Origin: Thermococcus gammatolerans EJ3
GTDB taxonomy: Archaea > Methanobacteriota_B > Thermococci > Thermococcales > Thermococcaceae
DNA: 64,000 nt
Direction: 5' to 3'
NCBI RefSeq assembly: GCF_000022365.1
Contig: NC_012804.1
Coordinates: 558,001-622,000 of the forward strand
Shown here: positions 2,128 through 41,622 of the stretch, in pieces
How the letters are laid out: each line of letters starts with the position of its first letter
How positions within the stretch are numbered: position 1 is the stretch's first letter
Made by a program: the position numbers and the translations under genes
Notes under the pieces: generated by a model
Database searches by the model: none
Told to the model about the DNA's origin: nothing
The model's input: only the letters and a program-made list of their open reading frames with translations

Positions 2128-2919
2128 TCAAATAAGCTCGGCGAAGGGTGTTATGTGGAGGAAGAGCTCGGGCATGAAGCGAAGGCCCTCCGCATACCTC
2201 ACCCCGATCTTTTCCCCGTAGAATTCCGCGACCGTTCTGAGGAAGGGCTCCCACTTCTCCCATACATCGTCCGTGAACTGGCTCCTGTGAACCCTTATCG
2301 CCCTCAGCTTGAGCTCCATCACATCGGTTATGTCGACGAAGTAGTTGGGTTTAGCGGTATAGTAGAAGCCAATCAAATCGATCCGGTGGGGCTCTAGGCC
2401 AATGTGGAGGTCGCTTCTCGCGACGTTTGGCAACGGTGAAAAGAGCACTGCCTCAAGGGCAAGCTTTCCCGCTGTCACGTGGTCTGGATGGGCCTCGTAG
2501 GGTAGCCAGGGATCCGGAGCGAGGACGAGGTCAGGCTTCTCTTGTCTGATGACTTTGATTATATTGTTCCTCGCCTCGATGTTGTATGGAAGCTCCGTAT
2601 CCCTGTAATCGAGCCAGATTATCCTCTCAACGCCGAGCATTCTGGCGCTTTTCTCTTCCTCTCTTCGCCTTATGAGGGCTAGTTCATGGGGGGACACGCT
2701 TTCATCGTACGTCCCCATTGAGCCGTCGGTGAGGCAGAGGTAGACGACCTTAACTCCCCGCTCGGTCAATTTCTTTATTGTTCCACCCATCCCGATTACA
2801 CAGTCGTCCGGATGGGGCTCTATGCAGAGAACCTTTTCAGCGTCCTTAAACGGATTTGAGAGGTCGAACTCGAGAATTGTGAGCAGCTTTTCGAGCGAGC
2901 CCTCAAAGCTCAAAACCAT
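2128..2919 (-). CDS. PIG-L family deacetylase, Dac-like (diacetylchitobiose/GlcNAc deacetylase)
   Basis: 263 residues. The zinc site of the PIG-L/LmbE family is visible as PHPDDCVIGMGG (about residues 35-46) and HPDHVTAGKLA (about 146-156). DTELPYNIEARNNI, HRSQFTDDVWEKWEPFLRTV and a C-terminal FLHITPFAELI closely match what I recall of the Pyrococcus/Thermococcus Dac enzymes, which remove an acetyl group from diacetylchitobiose or GlcNAc in chitin breakdown. No chitinase or GlmA gene lies beside it here, so the physiological substrate is inferred. ATG 2919 is preferred over GTG 2922 (AGGTG upstream). A strong TATA (TTATATAAAAG, about 2943-2953) precedes it. Confidence 0.85.
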   Translation of the reverse strand: MVLSFEGSLEKLLTILEFDLSNPFKDAEKVLCIEPHPDDCVIGMGGTIKKLTERGVKVVYLCLTDGSMGTYDESVSPHELALIRRREEEKSARMLGVERIIWLDYRDTELPYNIEARNNIIKVIRQEKPDLVLAPDPWLPYEAHPDHVTAGKLALEAVLFSPLPNVARSDLHIGLEPHRIDLIGFYYTAKPNYFVDITDVMELKLRAIRVHRSQFTDDVWEKWEPFLRTVAEFYGEKIGVRYAEGLRFMPELFLHITPFAELI

Positions 2920-2979
2920 CACCTGTTGCTATGAATTCGTGGCTTTTATATAACCGTTTCGATTTCACAATGAGCGGCC

Positions 2980-4065
2980 CTAGGGCAGCGGGATCCTCTC
3001 AACTTCCATCCTGTCGAAGGTAGGATACTCCTCCACGATGAAGAACCTCACGTCACCTTCGATGGCCTCGGCCAGCTCTAAAGCCACCTCCTCAGGCATC
3101 TCAATCCTGCCCTTCTCCCTGTTTATGTAGAGCCACTCCGCCGGAACTTCGACTTCTTCAACGAGGAACTCGTAGAGCTCGTCGAGGTCGTCGTATTCAG
3201 CGATGCCAAAGCGGAGCGTTCCGTCCTCGGTTACCTCCATGTAAGGTTTAGCCACCTTCCTCGCCATTCTCCTGAGCCTATTCCTGAGCTGGACGGCATC
3301 TTTAAGCTTCGCGGTGCAGAGGTGATAGCTCAGGGAAGTGTTCTTCTCACCCCACTCGAGAAGCTTTAGACCTAGCTCGAGCGAGCCCCTAATGGCGGAA
3401 CTCTCGTCGCTTACCGGCTCGTAGCCCATGTCGAGCATGGTTTTAAGGGTAACCTCGCTGAACTCCAGCTCGTTCACGTTGAGGAACTTCGCGCCTAACC
3501 TATCCAGAAACTCGGCGTACCACTTCATCCTCTCAAACTGGCCCGGAATCGAGGGAATCTCGCCGCCGATGTCCCAGTCGAAGTCAAAGGCATTCTTTAT
3601 GTTCTCGATTTCCACCTTGAAGAGCTTCGAGTTCGGGTTGAAGAGGTCTGGATGAAAGCGTATCTCATCTAATCCCACATCGTAGAGCTTCTCAAGGTTC
3701 TTCTTCGTGGCCAGAGCGCCGGTGGTGTAGAGGTGAACGTGGAACTTCCTTCCAAAGGCCTCCTTGAGGGCGCGGATGTAGCTAACGGTTCTGTCGAGCC
3801 TCGCCAGCGGATCCCCACCTGTAACTCCAGCTCCCTTGGCTTCCTGAATCAGGGCCTCCTCAATGATATCATCAACGCTCTTAACGGGCCTCTCGTTGGC
3901 ATAAACAACATCTTCCCTCCTCCAAGGGCTCAGCGGGCAGTAGAAGCAGTTTCTCGGGCAGATTCCGGTCGTGAAGAGGACGAGCTTTTCACCCCTAACG
4001 CAGAGCTGACAGCCCTTCGGGAGCTCTCTCACGGCGTACGAAAAGTAAGGCGTCTCCCAGACCAT
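2980..4065 (-). CDS. Radical SAM protein
   Basis: 361 residues. The radical SAM cluster motif CPRNCFYC (CX3CX2C) is near residue 35, preceded by [11 protein letters not shown]. It is followed by the GGDP strand-2 motif ([13 protein letters not shown] amino-group binding) and HVHLYTTG, the usual barrel order. Two extra cysteines at the N-terminus (GCQLCVRG) might bind metal or belong to a second cluster, but only two are seen. The protein is conserved in Thermococcales as an uncharacterised radical SAM enzyme. The product and substrate cannot be told. It is divergent from the RNase P gene with about 70 bases between them. Confidence 0.85.
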
Positions 4066-4136
4066 TCTTCCACCCCGCTAACCCTAACCAGAGGGCAGGC
4101 CTTAAAAACGTTGGCGGGCAAAGTTGTCCGATGCCT

Positions 4137-4499
4137 ATGAGGGAGAAGCCGAAGTATCTGCCCCCCACGCTCCGCGAGAAGCACCGCTACATAGCCTTCC
4201 AGCTGATTGGGGAGAGGCCCTTCCGGAAGGATGAGGTTAAGAAGGCGATATGGGAGGCGAGCCTCTCAACCCTCGGAGTCCTCGGCTCGGCTAAAGCAAA
4301 GCCCTGGTTCATACGCTTCGACGAGAAGAGCCAGACGGGAATCGTCAGGGTTGACAGGAAGCACGTCGAAGAACTGCGCTTTGCCCTGACGCTCGTTACA
4401 GAGATAAACGGCTCGAAGGCAATCTTTCGGACGCTCGGAGTTTCGGGGACGATAAAAAGGCTGAAGAGGAAGTTTCTAGCGGAGTTCGGCTGGCGCTAG
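4137..4499 (+). CDS. rnp2: Ribonuclease P protein component 2 (Pop5)
   Basis: 120 residues matching archaeal Pop5, the RNase P protein that pairs with Rpp30 to support the RNA in tRNA 5' maturation. Landmarks are the N-terminal [14 protein letters not shown], the central [13 protein letters not shown] and [18 protein letters not shown], and the near-invariant end [17 protein letters not shown]. Pyrococcus homologues begin MRKKPKTLPPTL, so the second ATG (4137) is chosen over 4131. A promoter-like CTTAAAAACG lies about 25 bases before the start, suggesting a leaderless or short-leader transcript. The stop overlaps the convergent glycosyltransferase stop. Confidence 0.92.
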
Positions 4500-5842
4500 A
4501 GCAGGAAGGGCATCGCCTTGTCTACAGCACCGGTGTAAACGAGCAGGTAGCGCCTGCAGGCCTTCTCCCAGGTGAAGTCTTCCCTTGCCCTCCTCCTGGC
4601 ATTCTCGCGGAGCCTTGTGAGGGTTCCCTCGTCGAGCTCTTTAGCTTTGATCATCGCCCTAGCGAGGGCAAAGGCGTCCCTCGGCGGGACGAGGATCCCG
4701 GTGGCGTTCTCCGGGTCGGCGTTGAGGTCAATTATTGTGTCCTTGAGTCCACCGACGGCGCTCGCTATTGGAACCGCTCCCAGGCACATCGCCTCAAGCT
4801 GAACTAATCCAAAGGGCTCAAAGTAAGACGGAATCACCACGAAGTCCACCGAGCCGTAGAGCTCCCTAACGAGCTCCCTGGGCAGGACGTCGGTGATTAC
4901 CCTGACGTTCTCCGGGAAGCGGTTCTCCACTGCTTTAGCCCAGGCCTCGAGACCGGGGTCGCCCTTGCCAACGATGATGAAGCGCATCTCCCTGAACGCT
5001 GGGTCGCCGGAGAGTATCTCTATGGCTCTGAGGAGCGTGTCAACACCCTTCTGCGCCCTGTCGAAGCGGCCGATGAACATGAAGGCCCTTCCGTCGCTCA
5101 AACCAAAGCGCCCGAGGACTTTCCTCCTCCTTTCATCCCTCGGTTTATCGGCGTTTTCGAGGAGGTGTTCACTCCAGAAGGAGCAGTCAATCCCATTGAA
5201 GACGTGCGTTACCTTGCCGTCAAAGTGCCTAAAGAAGTCCCACTCCTCCCAGAGGTAGCTCCTGCTGACGGTCGTTACGATATCGGCTATGTAGGCGGCG
5301 GTGTGCTCGGGGTCAAGATCCGGGTACGGGGCGAGCTCGCTCAGGTTGGCCTCGTGGAAGAGCCAGGCGGGAACCTTCGCCTTGTTGAGCCTGTGGACTG
5401 TGAAAACCGTCCTTAACCCGAAGTACTTCTTCAGGAGACCGAGGGCAAAGACGGTGTGCCAGTCATGGGCGTGAACCACGTCGGGCTTAAAAGTCCCTAT
5501 AAGACGGTTGAGCAGACCTGCGGAGGCTTTGCCGAAGAGTACGGTTTTCCGGAGGAGGGTCTCCCAGGCTGGGTAGACGTCGGCGTCAAGAACATCTCCG
5601 GAGAGGGAATAGACTGTAACGCCGTTCTGCTCCCGTTTTCTGGCCGTTACCTCGACTCTTCTGCCCTCAAAGGAGAGTCCGAACGAGAGGGAAGGCTCGC
5701 CGAGGTTTTTTCCGTGATCGGGGGTAAGGACCACAACCTCGTTGCCAAGCTTAACTAAGCCTTCGGCTATGCTCGTCACGGCCTCCGCGAGCCCGCCGAC
5801 TTTGACTGGAAGGTATTCAAAAGATAGGATGAGAACGCGCAT
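4496..5842 (-). CDS. glgA: Glycogen/starch-synthase-like glycosyltransferase (GT5)
   Basis: 448 residues with the GT-B fold. The N-terminal [12 protein letters not shown] followed by KVGGLAEAV carries the KxGGL loop that binds the sugar nucleotide. HAHDWHT (about residues 131-137) and the C-terminal [16 protein letters not shown] and [18 protein letters not shown] (E-x7-E) are also present. This matches the Thermococcales glycogen synthases, which elongate alpha-1,4-glucan from ADP- or UDP-glucose. It lies just downstream of tgr on the same strand. Starts at GTG 5851 and ATG 5848 (overlapping the tgr stop) are possible; ATG 5842 has GAGTGAT at a good distance. Co-transcription with the sugar regulator and the facing starch operon fits a role in storage glucan metabolism. 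Confidence 0.85.
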
Positions 5843-5847
5843 AGGCA

Positions 5848-6870
5848 TCACTCTAGGAGTATGAACTTCTCACCCTCGACGTCCTCGAAGTAGCTTCCTA
5901 TTCCGCCGACCTTGAGTTCCTTTCCGTTGTGCCTGAATGTGACGTTCGCGGTTAGGGGGGTGTACTCGTAGTCGATTATCTCGCCGTCTATTGTCACAGG
6001 CTTTTTCGTGTCGATGATCCTGCCTACTATTTCAGCTTTTCTCGGCAGGCCAGCGAACTTGAGAAGGACTATAAGGGTTCTTATGTTGACGAGGGAGAGG
6101 GGTTTGGGCAGCTTTTCATAATTGGGGGGTTTTATGATCTCGCTGTTGTCGAAGTAGATGGTGTAGAACCAGTGCATGTAGTTCTGGATTATCCTTGGGC
6201 TCTTGGCCCAGAATGAGTAGAACTTCTCCTTTCTCGTGTCCCGCGGGAGGGCACCGAAAAAGAGGGCATAGTCTATGTCACCGATGATCCAGCTCGCCAT
6301 GAGCCAGGGTGCCCCGCCACTCCTCGCGAGGATAATATTGTCGCCCTTAAGCCAGTCCGGAACCTCTCTAAAGTTGCTGATGATGACAAAGATGACGTCC
6401 TTGCGACCCTTTATCTCGTTTTTAAGAAGCTCGAGGAACTCCAGGGGAGTGTTGATTAAAACCTCGTGCTTTGCACTTCTGATGACGTATTCGGCCCTCT
6501 CAACGGTGTTGTCAAAGCCCTGAATCGTCCATATCTCCGGCAGCTCCTCCCCGTGAACCTCACGGTAGAGCTCGAGGAACGCCCCCTTGAGGGAATCTAT
6601 GTCCCGAATTATCTCCTCCTTGATCTTTTCGAGTATAACCTCGGGATTGACGGGCTTGTAGAGCCTCGGCGTGCCCTGCATGACGTCGACGAATCCCTTT
6701 CTGTGGAGCGAGCTCAGCACGTCGTAGACCCTCGTGTGGGGGATTCCGCTCTCTTTCGTTATGTCGGTTGCCTTGCTCGGGCCGAGCTTGAGGAGCGTGA
6801 TGTATGCAACGCTCTCGTATTTGGTCAGCCCAAGTCTCTGGAGCTTCTCAATTATCTCCTCTTCCCTCAT
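5848..6870 (-). CDS. tgr: TrmB-family sugar-sensing regulator Tgr (TrmBL1)
   Basis: 340 residues. Residues 1-80 form a TrmB winged helix (LGLTKYESVAYITLLKLGPS, then GIPHTRVYDVLSSLHRKGFVDV). The middle resembles the TrmB effector region (residues 100-230), and the C-terminal all-beta part (about 255-340) is the sugar-binding domain. Length and position beside the maltodextrin operon match Tgr of T. kodakarensis and TrmBL1 of P. furiosus. These bind TATCAC-N5-GTGATA, repress sugar uptake and glycolysis genes, and activate gluconeogenesis when maltodextrin is absent. It is divergent from the cyclomaltodextrinase gene (72-base gap) and is followed by the glycosyltransferase gene. Direct autoregulation is possible because a Tgr-like site lies in the gap. 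Confidence 0.92.
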   Translation of the reverse strand: MREEEIIEKLQRLGLTKYESVAYITLLKLGPSKATDITKESGIPHTRVYDVLSSLHRKGFVDVMQGTPRLYKPVNPEVILEKIKEEIIRDIDSLKGAFLELYREVHGEELPEIWTIQGFDNTVERAEYVIRSAKHEVLINTPLEFLELLKNEIKGRKDVIFVIISNFREVPDWLKGDNIILARSGGAPWLMASWIIGDIDYALFFGALPRDTRKEKFYSFWAKSPRIIQNYMHWFYTIYFDNSEIIKPPNYEKLPKPLSLVNIRTLIVLLKFAGLPRKAEIVGRIIDTKKPVTIDGEIIDYEYTPLTANVTFRHNGKELKVGGIGSYFEDVEGEKFILLE

Positions 6871-12651: not shown

Positions 12652-15600
12652 ATGGTACGGTGGAATAGAAAGCTTGCCCTTTCCCTGCTCCTGATCGGGG
12701 TTATGCTCGTGAGTGCGTTCGCTGTAAACCTGGGCGGTGCTAACGAGACCACTCCAAAGCCCCTGAACGTTATCATCGTCTGGCATCAGCACCAGCCCTT
12801 CTACTACGATCCAGTCCTCAACGTTTACACGAGGCCATGGGTAAGGTTGCATGCCGCCAACGACTACTGGAAGATGGCCCACTACCTGAGCGAGTATCCA
12901 GAAGTGCACGCCACAATCGACCTTTCCGGTTCCCTCATAGCTCAGATAGTGGACTACATGAACGGCCGGGAGGACACCCTTCAGCTCATCAGCTACAAGA
13001 TCGCGAACGGCGCTCCACTGAGCCTCGACGAAAAATGGCAGGTTCTCCAAGTCCCGGGTGGATTCTTCGACCACACGATCCCCTGGAACGGCGAGCCGGT
13101 AACCGATAGGGATGGAAACCCCACGAGAAAGTTCTGGAGGCACTACACCGAGCTCAAAGACAAGCTCATGAACGCGAAGAAGAAGTACTCAAACCTGTCC
13201 CTTGAGGAGCAGAAGGTTAAGATAACGGGCGAGTTCACGGAGCAGGACTACGTGGATCTGGCCGTTTATTTCAACTTGGCATGGATAGACTACGGCTATA
13301 TCGTGAGCCACCCCGAGCTGAAGGCCATCTACGATAGGGTGGATGAGGGCAACTACACAAGGGAGGATCTTAAAACCGTTCTGAACGCCCAGATGTGGCT
13401 TCTCAACCACACCTTCGAGGAGCACGAGAGGATAAACCTCCTCCTCGGCAACGGAAACGTCGAGGTCACGGTGGTTCCCTACGCCCACCCGATAGGGCCG
13501 ATCCTCAACGACTTTGGCTGGGAGGGTGACTTTGACGCACAGGTGAAGAAGGCGGACGAACTTTACCGCGAGTACATCGGGAACGGCACCGTTGCACCGA
13601 GGGGAGGCTGGGCCGCCGAATCGGCTCTAAACGATAAGACGCTCGAAATACTGGCTGACAACGGCTGGGAATGGGTAATGACCGATCAGATGGTGCTTGA
13701 AAGGATGGGAATTCCAAAGACCGTCGACAACTACTATCACCCCTGGGTGGCCCAGTTCGGCGACAGGAAGATATACCTCTTCCCGAGGAACCACGACCTC
13801 AGCGACAGGGTTGGCTTCCGCTACGCCGGCATGAACCAGTACCAGGCCGTTGAGGACTTCGTAAACGAGCTTCTTAAGATTCAGAAGCAGAACTACGACG
13901 GTTCCCTCGTCTACGTCATAACCCTCGACGGCGAGAACCCGTGGGAGCACTACCCCTACGACGGTCAGCTCTTCCTCACCCAGCTCTACAAGAGGCTCAC
14001 CGAACTCCAGGAGGCGGGCCTCATAAGAACGCTGACGCCGAGCGAGTACATCCAGCTCTACGGGGACAAGGCCAAGGTTTTAACACCCAAGATGATGGAG
14101 CGCCTCGATTTTACCAGTGAGGAGCGAGTTAAGGCCCTTCTGAAGGCCCAGAGCCTCAACGAGCTCTACGATATGGCCGGGATAAATGAGGAGATGCAGT
14201 GGCCCGAGAGCAGCTGGATAGATGGAACACTCTCAACGTGGATCGGTGAGCCCCAGGAGAACTACGCCTGGTACTGGCTTTATCTTGCCAGAAAGACCCT
14301 CATGGAGCACAACGCTTCGATGGGCCTTGCTAGGTGGGAGAACGCCAACGAGTACCTACTCAGGGCCGAGGGAAGCGACTGGTTCTGGTGGTATGGCAAG
14401 GATCAGGACAGCGGGCAGGATTACGCCTTCGACCGCTACTTCAAAGCCTACCTCTACGAGATCTACCGCCTCGCGAACGTGACCCCGCCGGATTACCTCT
14501 ACGGCAACTATTATCCTGATGGCGAGCCCTACCTCAGGAGGGCCCTCGACGGACTCAAGGAGGGCCAGGTAAGGACGTACTCAAGCCTCTCCCCCCTTGC
14601 CGAGAACGTTAGCGTTTACTTCGACGGTGAGGGGCTTCACTTTGTTCTCAACGGCAACCTGAGCGAGTTTGAGGTGAGCCTGTACGAGGTGAACAGGCAC
14701 GTTGGGAACACCTTCACCCTGCTCCAGAGCAGACCGGACGAGCTGAGCTATTCAACTTGGCCGTTCTCAAAGGACAGCGTCGGTCTAATGATAACCAAGC
14801 ATATCGTTTACAGAAACGGCACGGCCGAGCTCTACAACGCAACCGACTACGATAACTCAACCCTCCTCGGCAACCTTACGGTGAAGAAGACCGAAGACTC
14901 AGTGGATATCACGGTGCCCTTCGACAACCTCGAGAGCCCCAGCGACTTCTATTTCGCGGTGTCGACCGTGAGAAACGGCAGCCTCGAGGTTATCAGCACA
15001 CCCGTTGAGCTCAAGCTTCCAACCCAGGTTAAGGGCGCGATCATAGCCGACATAAAGGATCCTGAAGGGGACGACCACGGCCCGGGAACCTACACCTACC
15101 CAACGGATGGGGTCTTCAAGCCCGGCGTCTTCGATCTCCTCCGCTTCAGACTCCTCGAAGGAGCCGACGGCTACATCATGGAGTTCTACTTCAAGAACCT
15201 TGGCGACAATCCCTGGAACGGGCCGAACGGATTCAGTCTGCAGATAATTGAGGTTTACCTCGACTACAAACCCGGCGGGAACACTTCTGCAATAAAAATG
15301 TTCCCGGATGGCCCCGGTGCGAACGTTAACCTCGACCCAGAGCATCCGTGGGACGTGGCGTTCAGAATAGCTGGCTGGGACTACGGCAACCTCATCGTCC
15401 TGCCGAACGGTACGGTTTACCAGGGTGAGATGAAGATCTCGACCGATCCAACCAAGAACGCCATAATAGTCAAGATCCCGAAGAAGTACATAAAGATTGA
15501 CGAGGACTACGGACTCTGGGGAGACGTCCTGACTGGATCGCAGGATGGCTATGGTCCTGACAAGTGGAGACCGGTAGCTGTTACGGCCGAGCAGTGGAAG

Positions 15601-16791
15601 GTCGGAGGCGGAGATCCAGACGCCATCATAGCGGGCGTTGAGCCAAGGGTGATGGATGAACTCGTGCCGCCTGGCTTTAAACCAACTCAGGAGCAGCAGC
15701 TGAGCTCCTACGATGCCGAGAACGGAAAGCGCGCGACAGTTAAGGCGATTTCCCTCCTCAAGACCGGTATAGTCGTCAAGGATCCGGAGGGAGATGATCA
15801 CGGTCCAGGAACTTACACATATCCAACTGACCCCGTCTTCGTTCCAGGCGCCTTTGATCTCCTCAAGTTTAAAATGGTGAACGAAAGCGACTACTGGCAT
15901 CTTGAGTTTTACTTCAAGGATCTCGGTGACAATCCCTGGAACGGGCCGAACGGATTCAGCCTCCAGATAATCGAGGCATACTTCGACTTCAAGGACGGAG
16001 GCAACACTTCCGCTATAAAGATGTTCCCCGACGGGCCAGGTGCCAACGTTGATCTCGATCCAAGCCATCCCTGGGATCTCGCCCTTAGAATAGCTGGCTG
16101 GGACTACGGTAACTTAATTGTTCTCCCAAACGGGACCGTTTACCAGGGTGAGATGAAGATCTCGGCCGATCCAACCAAGAACGCGATAATCGTAGAGCTC
16201 CCTAAGAGGTACCTCAGGGTCAACCGGGAGTACGGCCTCTACGCCTCAATACTCACGGGAAGCCAAGACGGTTACGGTCCTGACAAGTGGAGACCAGTAG
16301 CTGTTACGGCCGAGCAGTGGAAGGTTGGTGGAGGGGATCCTGATGCCATCATAGCCGGCGTCGAGCCAAGGGTGATGGACGAGCTCGTCCCGCCCGGCTT
16401 CAAACCCACTCAGGAGCAGCAGCTGAGCTCTTATGATGCCGAGAACGGAAAGAGGGCCACGGTGCTGATGATAACCCTCATCAAGGGCACATCCACTGGT
16501 GGAGGCACTACCACAACAACCACTACACCCAGTCCAACGACCACCACGACTACTTCAACTACCACTATATCAACCACAACAACCACGTCCTCCTCGGGAG
16601 GTGGCACCAGCTCTGGGCCAACAACTACGACGACGAGTACCACTACAACTTCAACGACCACAACCACCACTACACCCACCACTACCACAACGTCGACGAC
16701 AACTTCAAAGAAGGGCGGCTGGAAGCTCTGTGGGCCCGCTGTGATAGTGGGCCTTGCCCTAATGCCGCTCCTTCTACGGAGGAAGCTCTGA
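12652..16791 (+). CDS. apu: Extracellular type II amylopullulanase, GH57
   Basis: 1379 residues. A signal peptide (about 1-29) is followed by the GH57 barrel with HQHQP (residues 45-49), the nucleophile region GGWAAESAL (E323) and the acid/base region TLDGENPWEHY (D426). A duplicated beta module with the DOMON/glucodextranase look follows (about residues 803-1280), then a Thr/Ser-rich stalk (about 1283-1355) and a C-terminal KLCGPAVIVGLALMPLLLRR, which fits the Thermococcales CGP-CTERM surface-sorting signal. GH57 amylopullulanases cut both alpha-1,4 and alpha-1,6 links in starch and pullulan. The enzyme is probably held on the cell surface next to the MalEFGK importer. Confidence 0.93.
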   Translation: MVRWNRKLALSLLLIGVMLVSAFAVNLGGANETTPKPLNVIIVWHQHQPFYYDPVLNVYTRPWVRLHAANDYWKMAHYLSEYPEVHATIDLSGSLIAQIVDYMNGREDTLQLISYKIANGAPLSLDEKWQVLQVPGGFFDHTIPWNGEPVTDRDGNPTRKFWRHYTELKDKLMNAKKKYSNLSLEEQKVKITGEFTEQDYVDLAVYFNLAWIDYGYIVSHPELKAIYDRVDEGNYTREDLKTVLNAQMWLLNHTFEEHERINLLLGNGNVEVTVVPYAHPIGPILNDFGWEGDFDAQVKKADELYREYIGNGTVAPRGGWAAESALNDKTLEILADNGWEWVMTDQMVLERMGIPKTVDNYYHPWVAQFGDRKIYLFPRNHDLSDRVGFRYAGMNQYQAVEDFVNELLKIQKQNYDGSLVYVITLDGENPWEHYPYDGQLFLTQLYKRLTELQEAGLIRTLTPSEYIQLYGDKAKVLTPKMMERLDFTSEERVKALLKAQSLNELYDMAGINEEMQWPESSWIDGTLSTWIGEPQENYAWYWLYLARKTLMEHNASMGLARWENANEYLLRAEGSDWFWWYGKDQDSGQDYAFDRYFKAYLYEIYRLANVTPPDYLYGNYYPDGEPYLRRALDGLKEGQVRTYSSLSPLAENVSVYFDGEGLHFVLNGNLSEFEVSLYEVNRHVGNTFTLLQSRPDELSYSTWPFSKDSVGLMITKHIVYRNGTAELYNATDYDNSTLLGNLTVKKTEDSVDITVPFDNLESPSDFYFAVSTVRNGSLEVISTPVELKLPTQVKGAIIADIKDPEGDDHGPGTYTYPTDGVFKPGVFDLLRFRLLEGADGYIMEFYFKNLGDNPWNGPNGFSLQIIEVYLDYKPGGNTSAIKMFPDGPGANVNLDPEHPWDVAFRIAGWDYGNLIVLPNGTVYQGEMKISTDPTKNAIIVKIPKKYIKIDEDYGLWGDVLTGSQDGYGPDKWRPVAVTAEQWKVGGGDPDAIIAGVEPRVMDELVPPGFKPTQEQQLSSYDAENGKRATVKAISLLKTGIVVKDPEGDDHGPGTYTYPTDPVFVPGAFDLLKFKMVNESDYWHLEFYFKDLGDNPWNGPNGFSLQIIEAYFDFKDGGNTSAIKMFPDGPGANVDLDPSHPWDLALRIAGWDYGNLIVLPNGTVYQGEMKISADPTKNAIIVELPKRYLRVNREYGLYASILTGSQDGYGPDKWRPVAVTAEQWKVGGGDPDAIIAGVEPRVMDELVPPGFKPTQEQQLSSYDAENGKRATVLMITLIKGTSTGGGTTTTTTTPSPTTTTTTSTTTISTTTTTSSSGGGTSSGPTTTTTSTTTTSTTTTTTTPTTTTTSTTTSKKGGWKLCGPAVIVGLALMPLLLRRKL
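15058..16491 (+). repeat. Tandem duplication inside the amylopullulanase gene (two units, 723-base period)
   Basis: The segment starting at GATCCTGAAGGGGACGACC (15058) recurs at GATCCGGAGGGAGATGATC (15781), so each unit codes for about 241 residues. Conservation is patchy at the DNA level. Stretches such as PNGTVYQGEMKIS and GYGPDKWRPVAVTAEQWKVG are almost identical in both units, whereas the unit starts and edges differ. This suggests either gene conversion or strong selection on those segments, probably a glucan-binding or support face. Confidence 0.9.
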
Positions 16792-20652: not shown

Positions 20653-21918
20653 ATGACTCAGCTTGGGAAGGTCTTGAAGGAAGTTGAAGGCCTGAGAGAC
20701 GAGATGATAAAGACGCTCGTCGAGCTGATTAAGATTCCGGCCATAAGCCCCGACTACGGTGGTGAGGGCGAATACGACAAGGCCCAGAAGTTGCTTGAGA
20801 TTATCAGAGACTGGCCCTTCGACAAGGTCGAGGTCTACAACGCGCCCGACAAGAGGGCCAAGAACGGGGTCAGGCCGAACATATTGGCCTATTACTACGG
20901 CGAGAAAGGCGAGGAAAGCGAGAGACTCTGGATTCTCACCCACCTCGACGTCGTTCCGCCCGGGGACCTGAGCAAGTGGACCGTTACCGAGCCATTTAAA
21001 CCGCTCGTCAAGGACGGCAAGGTCTACGGGCGCGGAAGCGAGGACAACGGGCAGAGTTTGGTTGCTTCGCTTTACGCGGTGAAGGCCATGATGAACCTCG
21101 GGATAAGGCCGAAGAGGACGGTTATTTTGGCCTTCGTCAGCGACGAGGAAACCGGGAGCAAGTACGGAATCGAATGGTTGATGAGGGAACACCCAGAGCT
21201 CTTCAGGGAAGATGACCTCGTTCTCGTCCCCGACGGTGGAAACGAGGACGGAACGTTCATAGAAGTCGCTGAAAAGGGAATCCTCTGGTTCAAGCTAAGG
21301 GTCAGGGGGCAGCAGGTGCACGCGAGCATGCCGGACAAGGGCCTGAACGCACACCGCGTTGCACTTGATTTGGCCTACAACCTCGACAAAAAGCTTCACG
21401 AGAAGTACAGCGAGAGGGACGAGCTCTTCGAGCCAGCTGAGAGCACCTTCGAGCCAACGATGGGAGGAAACCCAGCAGACAGCCCCAACATAATCCCTGG
21501 AGAGCACGAGGTCGTTTTCGACTGCAGGGTTCTGCCAAGGTACAGCCTCGACGATATCCTCAAGGACGTCGAGGGCGTCGTGGAAGAAGTTAAGGAGAGG
21601 CACAGGAAGGAGCTTGACGGGAAGGTTCTCCCAGAAATCGAGGTGGAGATTCTTCAGAGGGCAGACCCGGCCCCGCCGACCGACCCGGAGGGCGAGATAG
21701 TGAAACTCCTGAAGGAGGCGATAAAAGAACTCCGCGGAAAGGAAGCCAAGGTCGGTGGAATAGGCGGTGGAACCTTTGCGGCGTTCTTCAGGAGGAAGGG
21801 GATTCCCGCCGTTGTGTGGGCGACGCTCGACGAGATGGCACACCAGCCCAACGAGTACGCGAAGATTGACAACATGGTCGAGGACGCGAAGGTTATGGCT
21901 GCTTTGGCGCTTCTCTGA
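20653..21918 (+). CDS. M20 family zinc metallopeptidase (DapE/ArgE/carboxypeptidase type)
   Basis: 421 residues from ATG 20653. Catalytic motifs are HLDVVPPGD (first zinc His and the following Asp), GRGSEDNGQ (bridging Asp), DEETGSKYG (general-base Glu plus ligand) and VPDGGNEDG. A lid domain follows (about 185-300: HASMPDKGLNAHRVA). The family removes an acyl or amino-acid group from peptides or N-acyl amino acids. The Thermococcales members are usually annotated as diaminopimelate/acetylornithine deacylases, but that substrate is not supported by any pathway neighbours here. Confidence 0.85.
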   Translation: MTQLGKVLKEVEGLRDEMIKTLVELIKIPAISPDYGGEGEYDKAQKLLEIIRDWPFDKVEVYNAPDKRAKNGVRPNILAYYYGEKGEESERLWILTHLDVVPPGDLSKWTVTEPFKPLVKDGKVYGRGSEDNGQSLVASLYAVKAMMNLGIRPKRTVILAFVSDEETGSKYGIEWLMREHPELFREDDLVLVPDGGNEDGTFIEVAEKGILWFKLRVRGQQVHASMPDKGLNAHRVALDLAYNLDKKLHEKYSERDELFEPAESTFEPTMGGNPADSPNIIPGEHEVVFDCRVLPRYSLDDILKDVEGVVEEVKERHRKELDGKVLPEIEVEILQRADPAPPTDPEGEIVKLLKEAIKELRGKEAKVGGIGGGTFAAFFRRKGIPAVVWATLDEMAHQPNEYAKIDNMVEDAKVMAALALL

Positions 21919-22003
21919 CTTTTCTCTTCTTACATTTCAAGCCTCTTTGAAGCCGTCGGCAGGTATTTATAATCCCGCGGACAACCGTACATCGGTGGAG
22001 ATC

Positions 22004-23251
22004 ATGAGATGGGTGGTTCCCCTTCTTATCCTAATCGTCCTCGTTTCTGGATGTGTAAGTGATGTGGACAACGCTCGTTTCGAGAGTTCAAGCTCCTCCT
22101 CAACTCAGGAGACGACCCCTAACGCTGGAAATTCTGAGTGGAAAAACCCTGTTGTGGGGGGTATGAACTCTTTCGCCATTGAGCTCTATAAAAAGCTGGG
22201 AGAAAACAACGGCAACGTCTTTTTCTCTCCCTACAGCATCGAAACGGCCCTCACAATAGCCTATGAAGGTGCAAGAGGGGCTACGAGGGATGAAATGGGG
22301 AACGTTCTCCAGCTTCCCGGGGACAATGAGACCCGCTGGAAGGGCTTTAGAGGCCTCATTCTATCACTGGAAAGCAATGAGAGCTCACCCTTCGTTCTCA
22401 GGAGCGCCAACGCCCTCTGGGTCCAAAGTGGATATCCTGTAAGGGAGGACTACCTCCGGATTGCTAAGGAGTATTATCTGGCCAACGCTAGTGATCTTGA
22501 CTTTCAGGGTAATCCTGAAGGGGCGGCCGATGTCATAAACGATTGGGTGAAGAACCGGACCGGTGGCAGGATTAGGGACATCATATCAAGACTAAGCCCC
22601 GACACGAGACTGGTAATAACGAACGCAGTTTACTTTAAGGCAAACTGGTCGAGCAGGTTTGAGGCAGTTAACACCAAAAACGAGACCTTTTACTCCCCCA
22701 GTGGGCCCGTTGTGGTGCAGATGATGCACCAGACTGCGAAGTTCTTATATTTCGAAAACGATGACCTTCAGGCGGTGGAACTCCCCTACGAAGGGAACCG
22801 GCTGGGCATGCTGGTAATCCTTCCCCGAGAGGGGAGGTTTGAAGAGGTTGAAAGACAGTTGAACGCGGAGATGATCAGCGAAATAGTTGCTAACATGACC
22901 GACGAGATGGTTGCCGTTTCCATCCCAAAGTTCAAACTCGAGGAGGACTATCACCTCAAGGAAGTTCTCATGGAAATGGGCGTTAAGAGGGCCTTCACCA
23001 GACCAGACTTTGCAGGCATTTCTGAACTGGAGGACCTCGTTATAAGTGATGTGATCCATAAGACCTACATAAGTGTCGCCGAGAAGGGGACCGAGGCCGC
23101 CGCTGCCACGGCTGTGATAATGACCCTGGCTGCTCCCCCAGAGAATAACCTGAAGGTATTCCGGGCAGATCGTCCATTTATATTCTTCATACACGACAGG
23201 GAAACGGGAGCGATACTCTTCATGGGGAGGCTGATGAACCCTAAGGAATGA
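22004..23251 (+). CDS. Secreted serpin (serine protease inhibitor), lipoprotein
   Basis: 415 residues. The N-terminal segment with lipobox-like VLVSGC predicts export and lipid anchoring, followed by a short Ser-rich linker. The serpin core begins FAIELYKKLGENNGNVFFSP, with the shutter NAVYFKANW and the near-C-terminal DRPFIFFIHDRETGAILFMG. The reactive-loop hinge EKGTEAAAATA (from residue 360) has the small residues required for inhibitory serpins, giving a predicted P4-P2' of MTLA-AP, which suits chymotrypsin- or subtilisin-like targets. A T. kodakarensis serpin is known. The open frame extends upstream, but ATG 22004 has GGTGGAG just before it and starts the signal peptide. Confidence 0.93.
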   Translation: MRWVVPLLILIVLVSGCVSDVDNARFESSSSSSTQETTPNAGNSEWKNPVVGGMNSFAIELYKKLGENNGNVFFSPYSIETALTIAYEGARGATRDEMGNVLQLPGDNETRWKGFRGLILSLESNESSPFVLRSANALWVQSGYPVREDYLRIAKEYYLANASDLDFQGNPEGAADVINDWVKNRTGGRIRDIISRLSPDTRLVITNAVYFKANWSSRFEAVNTKNETFYSPSGPVVVQMMHQTAKFLYFENDDLQAVELPYEGNRLGMLVILPREGRFEEVERQLNAEMISEIVANMTDEMVAVSIPKFKLEEDYHLKEVLMEMGVKRAFTRPDFAGISELEDLVISDVIHKTYISVAEKGTEAAAATAVIMTLAAPPENNLKVFRADRPFIFFIHDRETGAILFMGRLMNPKE

Positions 23252-23280
23252 GCTTTTAAACATCCGCTTCAACTTTTTTC

Positions 23281-24024
23281 ATGCCCCTCTGGAAGGACGG
23301 GAAGCTCGGACTGCCGATAAAGGAAGCGGTAACGCTCTTTCCGGAGCTGAAGGACTACCTTGACGAGCGAGGAAGGCTCGACTTCTCAAACAGGGAGGCG
23401 AGGATACTCTACAACAGGGCGATAGCGAAGGCCCTCTTCGGACTGGAGATAGAATACCACCCGCGCGGTCTCGTAACGCCCCCAATATCGCGCTACCTCT
23501 TCCTGAAGACGTTTTTGAAGGGAGGAGAGAAGGTTCTGGAGATTGGGACCGGACACACCGCGATGATGGCGCTTATAGCTGAAAAGCTCTTCGACTGCGA
23601 GGTAGCGGCTACAGAGCTCGACGAGGAGTTCTTTGAGTACGCGAGGAGGAACATCGAGCGAAACCTCGCTAGGATCAGACTAATCAAGAGCGACGGTGGA
23701 ATAATCCGGGGAGTAATTCCTGAAGGAGAGCGCTTCGACGTAATTTTTTCGGCTCCACCATACTACGAGAGGCCGACGAAGGGAGTTCTCACGGAGAGGG
23801 AAGGCGTTGGAGGTGGAAAGTACGGCGAGGCCTTCTCGGTGGGGCTGATAGAGGAAGCAAGGTATTACTTACGGCCCGGCGGAAAGGTGGCTCTCTTCCT
23901 TCCCGATAAAAAGCCTCTAATCGGTGTTATAGCAGAAAAAGGGGAAGAGCTGGGCTATTCCGTGAGGGACGTGAAGTTTAAGGTCGGAACGCGGTGGAGG
24001 CACAGTTTGGTACTCAGATTGTAA
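23281..24024 (+). CDS. RlmF/METTL16-like N6-adenine RNA methyltransferase family protein
   Basis: 247 residues: an N-terminal helical part, then VLEIGTGHTAMMALIAEKLF (SAM loop, about residues 86-105), ATELDEEFFEYARRNIERN, and the catalytic-type motif FSAPPYYE in place of NPPF/NPPY. The architecture resembles the RlmF/METTL16 group that methylates N6 of adenine in structured RNA. The leading Asn replaced by Ala may alter activity. A TTTTAAAC box about 20-25 bases before the ATG suggests a leaderless transcript. Confidence 0.7.
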   Translation: MPLWKDGKLGLPIKEAVTLFPELKDYLDERGRLDFSNREARILYNRAIAKALFGLEIEYHPRGLVTPPISRYLFLKTFLKGGEKVLEIGTGHTAMMALIAEKLFDCEVAATELDEEFFEYARRNIERNLARIRLIKSDGGIIRGVIPEGERFDVIFSAPPYYERPTKGVLTEREGVGGGKYGEAFSVGLIEEARYYLRPGGKVALFLPDKKPLIGVIAEKGEELGYSVRDVKFKVGTRWRHSLVLRL

Positions 24025-24055
24025 TGGTTGTTGTAACGGCCATAACTTTCGTGAT

Positions 24056-24111
24056 TTTGGTCGTTTAAACGACCAAATAAAAAAGGATTTCGGTCGGTAG
24101 AGCGACCAACA
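24056..24111. promoter_or_regulatory. Two palindromic operator-like copies before the phosphorylase gene
   Basis: Copy 1 (24056-24077) is a perfect 22-base palindrome with half-site TTTGGTCGTTT. Copy 2 (24090-24111) keeps GGTCG-N6-CGACC and matches copy 1 at 17 of 22 positions. Centres are 34 bases apart, a little over three helix turns. Both lie upstream of a TATA-like TTAATCTTA (24119-24127) of the following gene. Two copies argue for a protein-binding site rather than a terminator of the methyltransferase gene, although copy 1 could also fold as an RNA hairpin. Confidence 0.7.
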
Positions 24112-24171
24112 TCCAAGGGTTAATCTTATTTCATCCTTCATCCAAAAACAAACCGTGAGGGGGTGGTTTTC

Positions 24172-38737: not shown

Positions 38738-38821
38738 TCGGGTTAGCCTTTTGTTAATTTTTGATCGTAAATTTTATAACTTTATCGACTGGAATATCAT
38801 CAGCGATTGGGGGTATCAAAA

Positions 38822-39703
38822 ATGGGGAGGATCACAGTACTCTCACTCATCGTCCTATTGTCCTTATCTTTGGAAACTGCTCTTGTCTCAGCGGGGGCAA
38901 TTTTAGTGGATGTTAGGGTACTAAACCAGACGGGGGAAGATTCATATGTTCCAAAAATTTTTCTCAACGAAACTGCCGCAGGTCAGTATTCGTACACTTT
39001 GCTCGTCATGAACGTCACCGCTAAGGATCTCGGCGACGGCTACTTCTCGGTTGGAATTAGGGGCCTTGTAATCGATGAGTTTCCCTCTACTCTCAATCTA
39101 ACTGGCCGTTGGATAAACATGACCTTCAAGGTCAAATCTAAAACCAACACTTTCGTCCTCGATGGGCAGGGGGCTTTCTTTCCGCTGTACATTGTCTTCC
39201 CCGAGAGCAAGACACTCTTCCATTTGGGTGAGCAACTTCAAGTTAAGGACAACGTCCTCCAGATGCTCCAGCCCCCCTCCAACAGAACGGTAAAGCTCGT
39301 TGGAAAATACGTCAAGGTCTATACGAAGCCGATTGAAGTGAACAGCGTTGACGTACGGAGCAGGAAGTACTTCAATTACACCATCTGCAACGTTCTGCCC
39401 CCGGAACTCCAGAGGAAGTTGAACATGACGAAGGGATCCAGCTGCTTTCTTCAGCGTACGCCTTACCTCGATGGGAGTTTTTTGGGTCACAAACCGCTCA
39501 GCATAATGGCTCTCTATCCCCGCGACCCCTTCGGTGTCTCTTCCGGCCCCGTTATCCTCTCGGTTGATTACATCCCCACGAGTCCGGACGAGCTGAAGGG
39601 GCAGGAAACCCCTAATAATAGGGATCTCCTTAAGCCTATCGGGATCGGTGCAATAATAGTAGCCGCAGCCGGTGTTGCATTGACGAGGAGGGGTGGGCGT
39701 TGA
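38822..39703 (+). CDS. Exported single-anchor protein of an ABC cassette, unknown function
   Basis: 293 residues. An N-terminal signal peptide (to about residue 24) and a C-terminal membrane helix (IGIGAIIVAAAGVAL) followed by RRGGR place most of the protein outside the cell. There are many N-glycosylation sequons (NQT, NET, NVT, NLT, NMT, NRT, NYT). I recognise no domain. ATG 38822 has GGGGGT a few bases before it. Its stop overlaps the start of the next membrane protein, so it belongs to the four-gene cassette to 41622. Confidence 0.75.
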   Translation: MGRITVLSLIVLLSLSLETALVSAGAILVDVRVLNQTGEDSYVPKIFLNETAAGQYSYTLLVMNVTAKDLGDGYFSVGIRGLVIDEFPSTLNLTGRWINMTFKVKSKTNTFVLDGQGAFFPLYIVFPESKTLFHLGEQLQVKDNVLQMLQPPSNRTVKLVGKYVKVYTKPIEVNSVDVRSRKYFNYTICNVLPPELQRKLNMTKGSSCFLQRTPYLDGSFLGHKPLSIMALYPRDPFGVSSGPVILSVDYIPTSPDELKGQETPNNRDLLKPIGIGAIIVAAAGVALTRRGGR

Positions 39704-40479
39704 AGCCGGTGGGAGTTGAGATATCCTCCAAGAGGTCTCTGCTCGCCGTGATGATCCTCCTTCCCCTCATTATAGCGGGCTCAGCATGGTACGTTATGAG
39801 TGAGCCCATCTCAGTTGGCGTTACCCAGCGCTCCTTCATGACTCCCCCGGATCAGCTGAACGCCTCCCTCCATCGAACCTTGGAGGGGCTGGGTGATTTC
39901 TTCTACCGGGTTTCGGATGTTCAGAAGGACATCTTCACGAAGGGTTTAAGGGTTCTTCTTTTGGGTGTTTTCATCGGGGTTACCCTTGTTTCCTCTCTGA
40001 TTCTCATCCGGCCGCTCTCCGATGGCACGATGGCGTTTGAGATAGGGCTGGTGAGAGACAAGAAAAGGGTCCTGCTCTACAGAACCGCTCCTATAATTGT
40101 GTACTCCGCCTACGTTTCAATAATCCTTGCTCTCTTCGCTTACTCTGTCTTCCCCTTGAAGGCTGGACTACCTTTCGATTTTGATAAGGGTCTCTGGCTC
40201 TTTGTGGTGCTTTTTCTCTCGGGCATGTGGGGTGTAACCCTAACAGCCCTCGTGGGATTCTACACCTGTGAGCCCGCTTATCCGGTCATTGTTTCGTTTC
40301 TCGTTTCCCTCACCTCATTCACGGGAGCGGGGGATCTCTTCTTTCCCTACTATAGGCTCTTAAACGCCCTCTGGGTTGATGTGAAGCTGCTCAACACGTG
40401 GTCGATCGCGGGGCTGGGCCTTCTGTTTGTCTCAGCTTTCATTGCGCTTCACAAATTTGAACGGGGTGAGTACTATTGA
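39700..40479 (+). CDS. Multi-pass membrane protein, probable ABC permease
   Basis: 259 residues with about six hydrophobic segments: LLAVMILLPLIIAGSAWYVM; VLLLGVFIGVTLVSSLILI; IIVYSAYVSIILALFAYSVF; LFVVLFLSGMWGVTLTALVG; a VIVSFLVSLTSFTG segment; and IAGLGLLFVSAFIALHKF. The loop between the first two carries an external-type segment. It resembles ABC-2 type permeases only in general form. The start is TTG 39700 overlapping the previous stop, with GGGGTGGGCG before it. Confidence 0.7.
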   Translation: MKPVGVEISSKRSLLAVMILLPLIIAGSAWYVMSEPISVGVTQRSFMTPPDQLNASLHRTLEGLGDFFYRVSDVQKDIFTKGLRVLLLGVFIGVTLVSSLILIRPLSDGTMAFEIGLVRDKKRVLLYRTAPIIVYSAYVSIILALFAYSVFPLKAGLPFDFDKGLWLFVVLFLSGMWGVTLTALVGFYTCEPAYPVIVSFLVSLTSFTGAGDLFFPYYRLLNALWVDVKLLNTWSIAGLGLLFVSAFIALHKFERGEYY

Positions 40480-40877
40480 GGCTGTTCAAAACACTGCTGG
40501 TGTCATCGCTTCTGTTCGCGGCCTTCACGTTCCTGCTCTTCCAGTCTATGGCCCAGGAAAAAGTAAACATCGTGTTCTACCAGACGGGTTATGATCCCGA
40601 GACCTATACGGTTCAGTACGTTGACACGACCCTGCCGCTCGCGGGTGAGTACTCAGTGCAAGGAGACAACGTGACTGTTCTGACCGTCGAGGGAAGGCAT
40701 GGAGGCCACTTCAGGACATCTCTGCGCGCGGTCAGGCTGGTTGGCGTCTTCAACACGAGCGACGATGTTGAAGTTGAGCTCCATCCAAAGGTGGGCATGC
40801 CGTGGGGAGTTCTTCTCGGTGTTGTGCTCTCGGGGGGTGTGTTTGGGTATGCTTTTAGAGTGCTCGGGTTTGAGTAA
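40476..40877 (+). CDS. Small membrane-anchored protein of the ABC cassette
   Basis: 133 residues. N-terminal hydrophobic helix (about 7-24), an extracellular beta-rich middle (QTGYDPETYTVQYVDTTLPL), and a C-terminal helix [23 protein letters not shown] recognise no family. The TTG start at 40476 overlaps the previous stop by four bases, and its own end overlaps the ATPase start by 29 bases, so the order within the cassette is fixed. Confidence 0.65.
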   Translation: MRLFKTLLVSSLLFAAFTFLLFQSMAQEKVNIVFYQTGYDPETYTVQYVDTTLPLAGEYSVQGDNVTVLTVEGRHGGHFRTSLRAVRLVGVFNTSDDVEVELHPKVGMPWGVLLGVVLSGGVFGYAFRVLGFE

Positions 40878-41622
40878 ATCCTACGGCGACACGAAGGCGC
40901 TCGACAACGTCAGCTTTAAGCTGAGCGAGGGACTCTCGTTTATCCTCGGACCCAACGGAAGCGGGAAGACAACGTTCATAAAGATACTAAGCGGCATAAC
41001 ATATCCCGATGCCGGCGAAATAAAGGTTTTGGGCAAGGACTACGGGGATCTGACTAAGGGGGAGATCTCCTTCTCCTTTGAAAAGACCAACCTGTCCCCC
41101 TCCATAAAGGTTGGCGAGTACCTGAGCGCAATAGGCGAGTGGAGGGGTGAGGACAATTCCCGGGAAGTAATGGAAATGTTTGAGCTCCGCAATGTTGAAT
41201 CCAAGAGATTCTCTGAGCTCTCCCAGGGATACAAGCGGAGGTTTCTGGTCGCAAGCGCCTTCGTTGGCTCTCCAAAGGTCGTCTTTCTCGACGAGCCCTT
41301 CAGCAACGTGGACATAGTGGCCAAGAAGAGGATGATGGAGGTTTTCATGGAGCTCAAGCGGGAGCGCAACATAGTCATCGTCTCCCACGTTTTCACGAAC
41401 ATCGAGGAAATAGACAGCCTCGTCGTGCTCTACAACGGAAAGGTTCTCAGAAACCTCCACGGGAAAGAACTCCAAGATATCGGGGGCTTCAAGGCAGTAT
41501 TCTCCGATGGGTCGGTCGTTGTCAACGATTTGGACGAGCTGGTAGAGAGGATTAGAAACGGCCAGAGACCTGTTTCGATTAAACCGGTAACCCTCGAAGA
41601 CTGGCTCATGGACTTCTTTTAG
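40849..41622 (+). CDS. ABC transporter ATP-binding protein
   Basis: 257 residues. Walker [16 protein letters not shown] (about residue 35), Q-loop [10 protein letters not shown], signature [15 protein letters not shown] (degenerate, Q for GG), Walker [13 protein letters not shown] and H-loop VIVSHVF. It matches the ABC-2/export type ATPases. The C-terminal part (about 210-257) may bind the permease. ATG 40849 is inside the preceding gene, in another frame. The pair of membrane proteins upstream should be its partners. Confidence 0.9.

Follow-up and report, generated by a model that had tools for sequence, protein, structure and literature searches.

A stretch of 64,000 nucleotides from the chromosome of Thermococcus gammatolerans EJ3 (NC_012804.1, positions 558,001 to 622,000; "the window" hereafter) carries a cassette of four same-strand genes, here called g1 to g4, whose predicted products are an exported surface protein, a permease, a small protein with a hydrophobic segment at both ends and an ATP-binding cassette (ABC) ATPase (Table 1). 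We judge the chance to be about even that these genes serve self-protection (immunity) within an archaeocin-like system found in the Thermococcaceae, and that the window copy is an orphan immunity module. A comparison of gene neighbourhoods in Thermococcales, proposed in a preliminary description of the sequence, revealed a patchy cassette at multiple sites with an optional upstream gene for a secreted protein (g0) that is often missing while the cassette stays; it is for this reason that self-protection is favoured over a housekeeping role.

The end-to-start overlap of the four genes at window 38822-41622 was confirmed, with overlaps of 4, 4 and 29 bp. Alignments of the four products (A1 to A4) were made from 15 cassettes; three more (L153, L154 and L156) were added only for a tree of the ATPase, which thus has 18 rows, and a broken cassette, L155, was left out of both. 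In all 15 aligned cassettes the distance from the aligned g4 start to the g3 stop is 29 bp, and 14 of them have a start codon there (ATG or TTG), the remaining one (L043) having CAG. The g1/g2 and g2/g3 junctions are variable; at the former, the genes overlap by up to 19 bp or lie up to 6 bp apart. The constancy of the g3/g4 junction is partly locked in, since both proteins are conserved at that place; at every such junction (window 40849-40877, for example) the bases coding for the invariant residues at the end of g3 also code for the conserved beginning of the g4 protein, and conservation of the g3 C-terminus therefore need not reflect the function of g3 itself. From the sequence, g1 appears to have its own promoter, with a TATA-like element upstream that was called by eye.

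Within the Thermococcaceae, a profile of g2 matched 14 of 94 genomes, belonging to two of the six genera; 13 have at least one intact g2 and one, G028, holds fragments only. The same search of 115 genomes of the phylum matched no additional genome. Intact g2 was always accompanied by g1, g3 and g4, and the order g1-g2-g3-g4 is kept in all 18 cassettes, which upholds the earlier view of a specialised ABC system with unrecognised surface partners; there is less support for the accompanying suggestion of "export or surface maintenance". In L156, from genome G032, g2 is split into two frames. Short weak matches to g1 in G089 and G090 (E 0.0025-0.0065) were dropped. Among 61 loci holding relatives of the ATPase, four are Thermococcus cassettes, and the other 57, with flanks of at most 8 kb that were often cut by contig ends, gave no g0 match and none to g1-g3 better than E 0.069. 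Carriage by phages or plasmids was rejected for the collections searched: pattern matches in viral contigs included no confirmed relative of g0 or g4, and g0, g2 and g4 (the last at E 1e-40) had no match in 72,556 plasmids.

The fifth gene, g0, is present before g1 in 10 of the 18 cassettes, always within 45 bp (11-45 bp in the nine measured). Its product, a protein of about 175 amino acids (aa), is probably exported by the Sec pathway. The g0 proteins form three divergent classes, and a motif, [HYN]-G-x-A-x-G following a strand-like stretch with Y-[GD], is found in nine of the ten, with L035 differing by one residue. They are almost free of sequons, with a single one across all ten proteins where 0.88 would be expected per protein, and also contain only one cysteine between them. 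In Pfam and NCBIfam, no family was found above cut-off for the nine g0 proteins searched. Some match to a g0 profile at E <= 0.01 was seen in 56 of the 94 genomes, and full-length g0 in 10. All ten full-length copies lie beside a cassette, in genomes that are all among the 13 with intact cassettes; the probability of this by chance would be 3e-11 for independent genomes, a condition that does not hold here. An eleventh genome, G028, has a broken copy of g0 within its decayed cassette. The other matches listed end by model position 71, mostly at 26-35, and correspond to the signal peptide that g0 has in common with other exported proteins; ordinary export of g0 is therefore supported. Two cassette carriers, G029 and G050, have signal-peptide matches only, and in the genome of T. 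gammatolerans EJ3 the g0 profile found no match at all. In the metagenome-assembled genome (MAG) G055, the g0 frame (L039 from 6261 onwards, oriented; L094 5370-5957) has no in-frame start that would give the full signal peptide of its relatives, owing to a frameshift or an assembly error. Replacement of g0 by a different secreted gene was also considered and rejected; none was read by eye in the lists of open reading frames (ORFs) before the eight cassettes without g0, the sole exception in those lists being a 117-aa hydrophobic ORF near L153.

The cassette is located at several unrelated chromosomal sites; the names given to flanking protein genes are our own reading of their sequences. In the window it is placed between nadC and pdxS. 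The latter gene was found in 55 of 61 genomes of the genus and 30 of its loci were fetched: in 20 of these nadC directly precedes pdxS and the cassette is absent, two have the cassette (the window and G032), and eight have no nadC within 1.5 kb. Elsewhere the cassette is found at a prenyl-synthase-like gene, at a tRNA-modification-like gene, behind a methyltransferase-like gene and at tRNA-Phe/tRNA-Gly. The 3' side of the methyltransferase-like gene is occupied by a cassette in G029 (L036 4891-7017) and by a lone g1 in G004 (L188 6321-7098); the same pair of serpin-like and methyltransferase-like genes lies in the window at 21767-24163 and is followed by a nucleosidase-like gene, so that this recurrent insertion site is empty here. 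In the part of the source available to us, two virus-related regions are named as the sole mobile elements of T. gammatolerans EJ3 (PMC2718504).

On the ATPase tree, cassettes with and without g0 are interspersed; the presence of g0 needs five changes, at least four of which are forced by well supported branches. Shuffled g0 labels required 6.2 changes on average and 122 of 500 shuffles were as low as the real tree, so the label is hardly clustered. In two cases cassettes could be compared within a single site. The DNA flanking the cassettes of G055, which has g0, and G050, which does not, is 95.1% and 94.3% identical on the two sides, and in G050 a short piece of unrelated DNA stands in place of g0 and its leader. 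At the tRNA-Phe/tRNA-Gly site, G020 has all five genes in the order g0-g1-g2-g3-g4, G032 and G029 lack g0, and in G028 all five genes are broken. Furthermore, G020 and G032 each have one g0-less and one g0-bearing cassette, and these are of different types. The module is thus kept where the secreted gene is gone, as is seen with bacteriocin immunity genes, in 8 of 18 cassettes and in two same-site comparisons. Ratios of non-synonymous to synonymous substitution rates (dN/dS), calculated with our own Nei-Gojobori script for the window against the copy nearest to it (G032), are 0.27 for g1, 0.14 for g2, 0.10 for g3 and 0.09 for g4. The g1-g4 genes of the window are maintained by purifying selection though the genome has no match to g0.

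Signal peptides and membrane anchors were judged from hydropathy. The description of g1 as exported and rich in sequons was borne out; it has an N-terminal hydrophobic segment, a single C-terminal anchor at residues 268-288 and eight N-x-S/T sequons, compared to 1.9 in shuffled sequences, none of 1000 of which reached eight. Its 15 homologues average 6.6 sequons against 2.0, and conserve the motifs TNTFxL...AFFPxY and DPFG as well as two cysteines. An AlphaFold model of g1 was uninformative (mean pLDDT 35, from 5 sequences). The end of g1 is a plain anchor; a very large secreted glycosidase-like protein encoded at window 12652-16791 has in its place a tail of the form CGP-x(n)-RRK, which we take to be CGP-CTERM-like. 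Six to seven hydrophobic segments in g2 and one at each end of g3 agree with their earlier labels as permease-like and two-anchor proteins.

That g1, g2 and g3 belong to no recognised family also held, as none gave anything over the curated cut-offs of Pfam or NCBIfam, nor at E <= 0.01 in PHROGs. The same three proteins and two g0 proteins matched none of the PADLOC anti-phage models at E <= 0.01, where g4 gave ATPase-type matches (best mad3, 6e-21). When 15 homologues each of g1 and g2 were compared singly with Pfam, scattered weak matches were obtained, the strongest being DUF1761 (E 5e-4) in three of the 15 g2 proteins. Profiles of g2, g3 and g0 had no match among Protein Data Bank (PDB) sequences; that of g1 matched a single cytochrome c sequence (E 0.003) in which no individual stretch passed, and this was taken as chance. 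The best direct match of g2 to an ABC-2 family, PF01061 at E 0.11, is below cut-off and insignificant. The g2 family profile, in turn, reaches a protein of another archaeal phylum at E 2e-5, and that protein is itself ABC-2 (PF12679, E 6e-20) with an ATPase gene adjoining. Profile-profile comparison with 25 ABC-2 permeases of Thermococcales (28 of 30 control loci had an open frame, and 25 were used) gave a probability of only 31%. The family-profile match makes it probable that g2 is a highly divergent ABC-2 permease. The preliminary description had named a match to a described ABC-2 exporter family as evidence against its view; the link to ABC-2 goes part of the way towards this, and no described exporter family claims g2.

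With Walker A, the signature LSQGY and Walker B (FLDEP) all present, and a match to PF00005 at E 1e-24 in Pfam, g4 has what is expected of the ATPase of an ABC-2 type transporter. It is an ordinary member of the exporter/ABCA subgroup, and its nearest relatives in the PDB are ABCA lipid transporters. The signature had been read as a sign of specialisation; it carries no such weight, because LSSGFKRR and LSGGFKRR occur in two further ABC ATPases encoded by this genome (11 of the 15 loci examined, the window's own included, had a readable signature).

Table 1. Features of the cassette, in window coordinates
Feature	Position	Strand	Basis
TATA-like element AATTTTATAA upstream of g1	38770..38779	+	sequence, judged by eye
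g1: sequon-rich surface protein of 293 aa, predicted to be exported; hydrophobic segment at the N-terminus and membrane anchor at the C-terminus	38822..39703	+	hydropathy, homologues
g2: probable divergent ABC-2-like permease, 259 aa; TTG start	39700..40479	+	family profile matches an ABC-2 (PF12679) protein
g3: small protein, 133 aa; hydrophobic segment at both ends, middle part probably outer; TTG start	40476..40877	+	
g4: ABC ATPase of 257 aa, ABC-2 exporter/ABCA-like	40849..41622	+	Pfam, NCBIfam, PDB, motifs
g1/g2 overlap, 4 bp	39700-39703	+	
g2/g3 overlap, 4 bp	40476-40479	+	
g3/g4 overlap, 29 bp; identical length in 15/15 cassettes compared	40849..40877	+	

Bacterial systems offer a precedent for such an arrangement. 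According to the sections available, ABC transporters with accessory proteins confer immunity to lantibiotics and to AS-48 in bacteria; LanFEG with LanI/LanH, and AS-48EFGH, resemble the cassette in combining an ATPase, a permease and accessory surface or membrane proteins, and transporters of this type can be retained for self-protection independently of export (PMC8538875). The cassette differs from them in that g1-g3 have no family match over cut-off, there is a single permease (g2), it is archaeal and its function is predicted. In lactococcin 972-like loci (scbABC) a probably Sec-exported protein is likewise followed by predicted immunity and transporter genes and immunity-only strains exist, such as the strains reported for streptococcin B that have dedicated immunity genes without a functional bacteriocin peptide; the accessible text describes the functions of the B and C genes as unverified in any such locus (PMC11796350). 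Here again there are differences, as g0 is without a family match and the cassette has four genes downstream of it; searches of Pfam and NCBIfam at E <= 0.1 linked none of nine g0 proteins to the lactococcin 972 family. From the parts of the sources at hand, sulfolobicins (sulABC) are also proteinaceous antimicrobials of thermophilic archaea with a patchy distribution, and a truncated copy has been reported in a non-producer (PMC3718332, PMC4609331). They are likened to g0 by description. We know of no ABC cassette beside sulABC.

Scattered presence, several sites, the association with g0, repeated absence of g0 from cassettes that remain and occasional decay of the whole together resemble toxin-immunity loci, and together with the bacterial precedents this leads us to propose that g0 is archaeocin-like and that g1-g4 are its ABC self-protection complex. 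In carriers, g0 would be made with an ordinary signal peptide and would exit the cell unaided by the cassette. The anchored g1 and the outer part of g3 may then meet it on the outside of the membrane, and an ABC-2 pump of g2 and g4, driven by ATP, could either expel g0 from the membrane or block its insertion, as do LanFEG and the AS-48 accessory transporter. Strains without g0 would retain g1-g4 because these protect them from neighbours that make it.

Alternatively, the cassette could be a dedicated export or assembly system, which exports, folds or anchors g0 as a surface, adhesion or signalling protein, the orphan cassettes serving some other, unlinked substrate. This is the main competing explanation, and it would account for the cassette accompanying full-length g0 in each of the 10 genomes that have it and for the leading position of g0, which lies 11-45 bp upstream of g1. 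The N-terminal hydrophobic signal of g0, however, is like that of many exported proteins, so a special exporter is unneeded, and in the window genome the cassette is under purifying selection without any g0; we therefore consider such a system rather unlikely. It is less probable still that g1-g4 are a general pump for surface maintenance or detoxification, expelling lipids, misfolded surface proteins or foreign peptides, with g0 as an optional helper. Cassettes without g0 are common (8/18), the window genes are maintained and the ATPase is closest in the PDB to ABCA lipid transporters, all in favour of such a pump, whereas restriction to 13 of 94 genomes, location at many sites, decay of the whole cassette in G028 and the fact that full-length g0 was never seen apart from the cassette do not suit a general function.

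The similar gene content of an exported protein, a permease and an ATPase recalls NosDFY-like and other ABC systems that load a metal or cofactor with an exported partner. We regard this as very improbable given that g1 has no Pfam domain, that NosDFY is not known to have a counterpart of g3, and that none of the large ORFs flanking the window copy reads by eye as a metal protein. Membership of the VARTIG module of Thermococcales was rejected. That module is likewise an accessory surface-protein locus proposed for inter-microbial conflict; its gene set is different and "ABC", "ATPase" and "permease" are absent from its main text as available (PMC8416519).

Several observations weigh against the proposed immunity function. 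What was observed is the association with a secreted g0; its antimicrobial action we infer, and g0 has no match to toxin or other known families. Its AlphaFold model is poor (mean pLDDT 46, from 2 sequences); a fold search with this model found nothing at E <= 0.001, and the top entries, pneumolysin and gasdermin (probability 0.08 and 0.11), were given no weight. The tree shows hardly any clustering of g0-bearing cassettes, so gains of g0 by transfer are indistinguishable from losses. Between three related genomes the dN/dS of g0 is 0.13-0.16, indicating purifying selection; at this distance nothing points to an arms race. G000, G029 and G050 have the cassette without full-length g0 anywhere, which could equally mean that the cassette has another main task. 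Finally, a search with the g1 profile found in one additional genome, G004, a lone g1 with no g2-g4 adjoining.

Beyond the phylum, the g2 profile matched 2 of 398 and 2 of 389 genomes at E <= 0.001, and 0 of 4 at E 0.01. These four matches comprise a same-order cassette (L223), a plain ABC-2 pair (L224) and two short stop-containing stretches that were dropped. L223 (G402, 2523-6697; g2 match E 1.5e-6), from a Thermoproteota-side genome among the 398 of the phylum of an Ignisphaera MAG, encodes in turn a g1-like protein, a 173-aa exported protein, a second g1-like protein, a g2-like protein, a 131-aa protein and an ATPase with LSAGYRKR. Thus g1 is duplicated with the 173-aa gene between the copies, and the 131-aa protein occupies the place of g3. 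The likeness to g1 (48% and 75%) and to g2 (60%) is suggestive only, that to g3 (1.4%) is undetectable and the 173-aa exported gene is not g0-like (0.3%); the g1 likeness comes mainly from one motif, GFFP[FL]YIFP after an N. L223 may be a distant cousin of the cassette in another archaeal phylum, and is a lead rather than a result.

Archaeal antagonism is little known. Makarova et al. reportedly surveyed the antimicrobial peptides and polymorphic toxins of archaea in 2019. The available part of a review of archaeocins names halocins and sulfolobicins and leaves Thermococcales unmentioned (PMC4609331). The titles and abstract openings of the literature searched contained no archaeocin or ABC immunity system of Thermococcales, the VARTIG conflict module being the nearest, and an earlier mention may exist. 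We would tentatively suggest, at somewhat less than an even chance, that this is a new antagonism system of the Thermococcaceae, in which a family of secreted, beta-rich and almost sequon-free g0 proteins is countered by a four-part ABC immunity complex (an anchored, predicted glycoprotein, an ABC-2 permease, a two-anchor protein and an ATPase), with producer and immune-only strains in circulation, T. gammatolerans among the latter and L223 as a distant cousin. If this is true, it provides a candidate heat-stable secreted antagonist and its immunity genes, with naturally occurring carrier and immune-only alleles that share chromosomal sites. Genetics is available in Thermococcales, and the inhibition of kin by secreted proteins in hyperthermophilic euryarchaea would then become directly testable.

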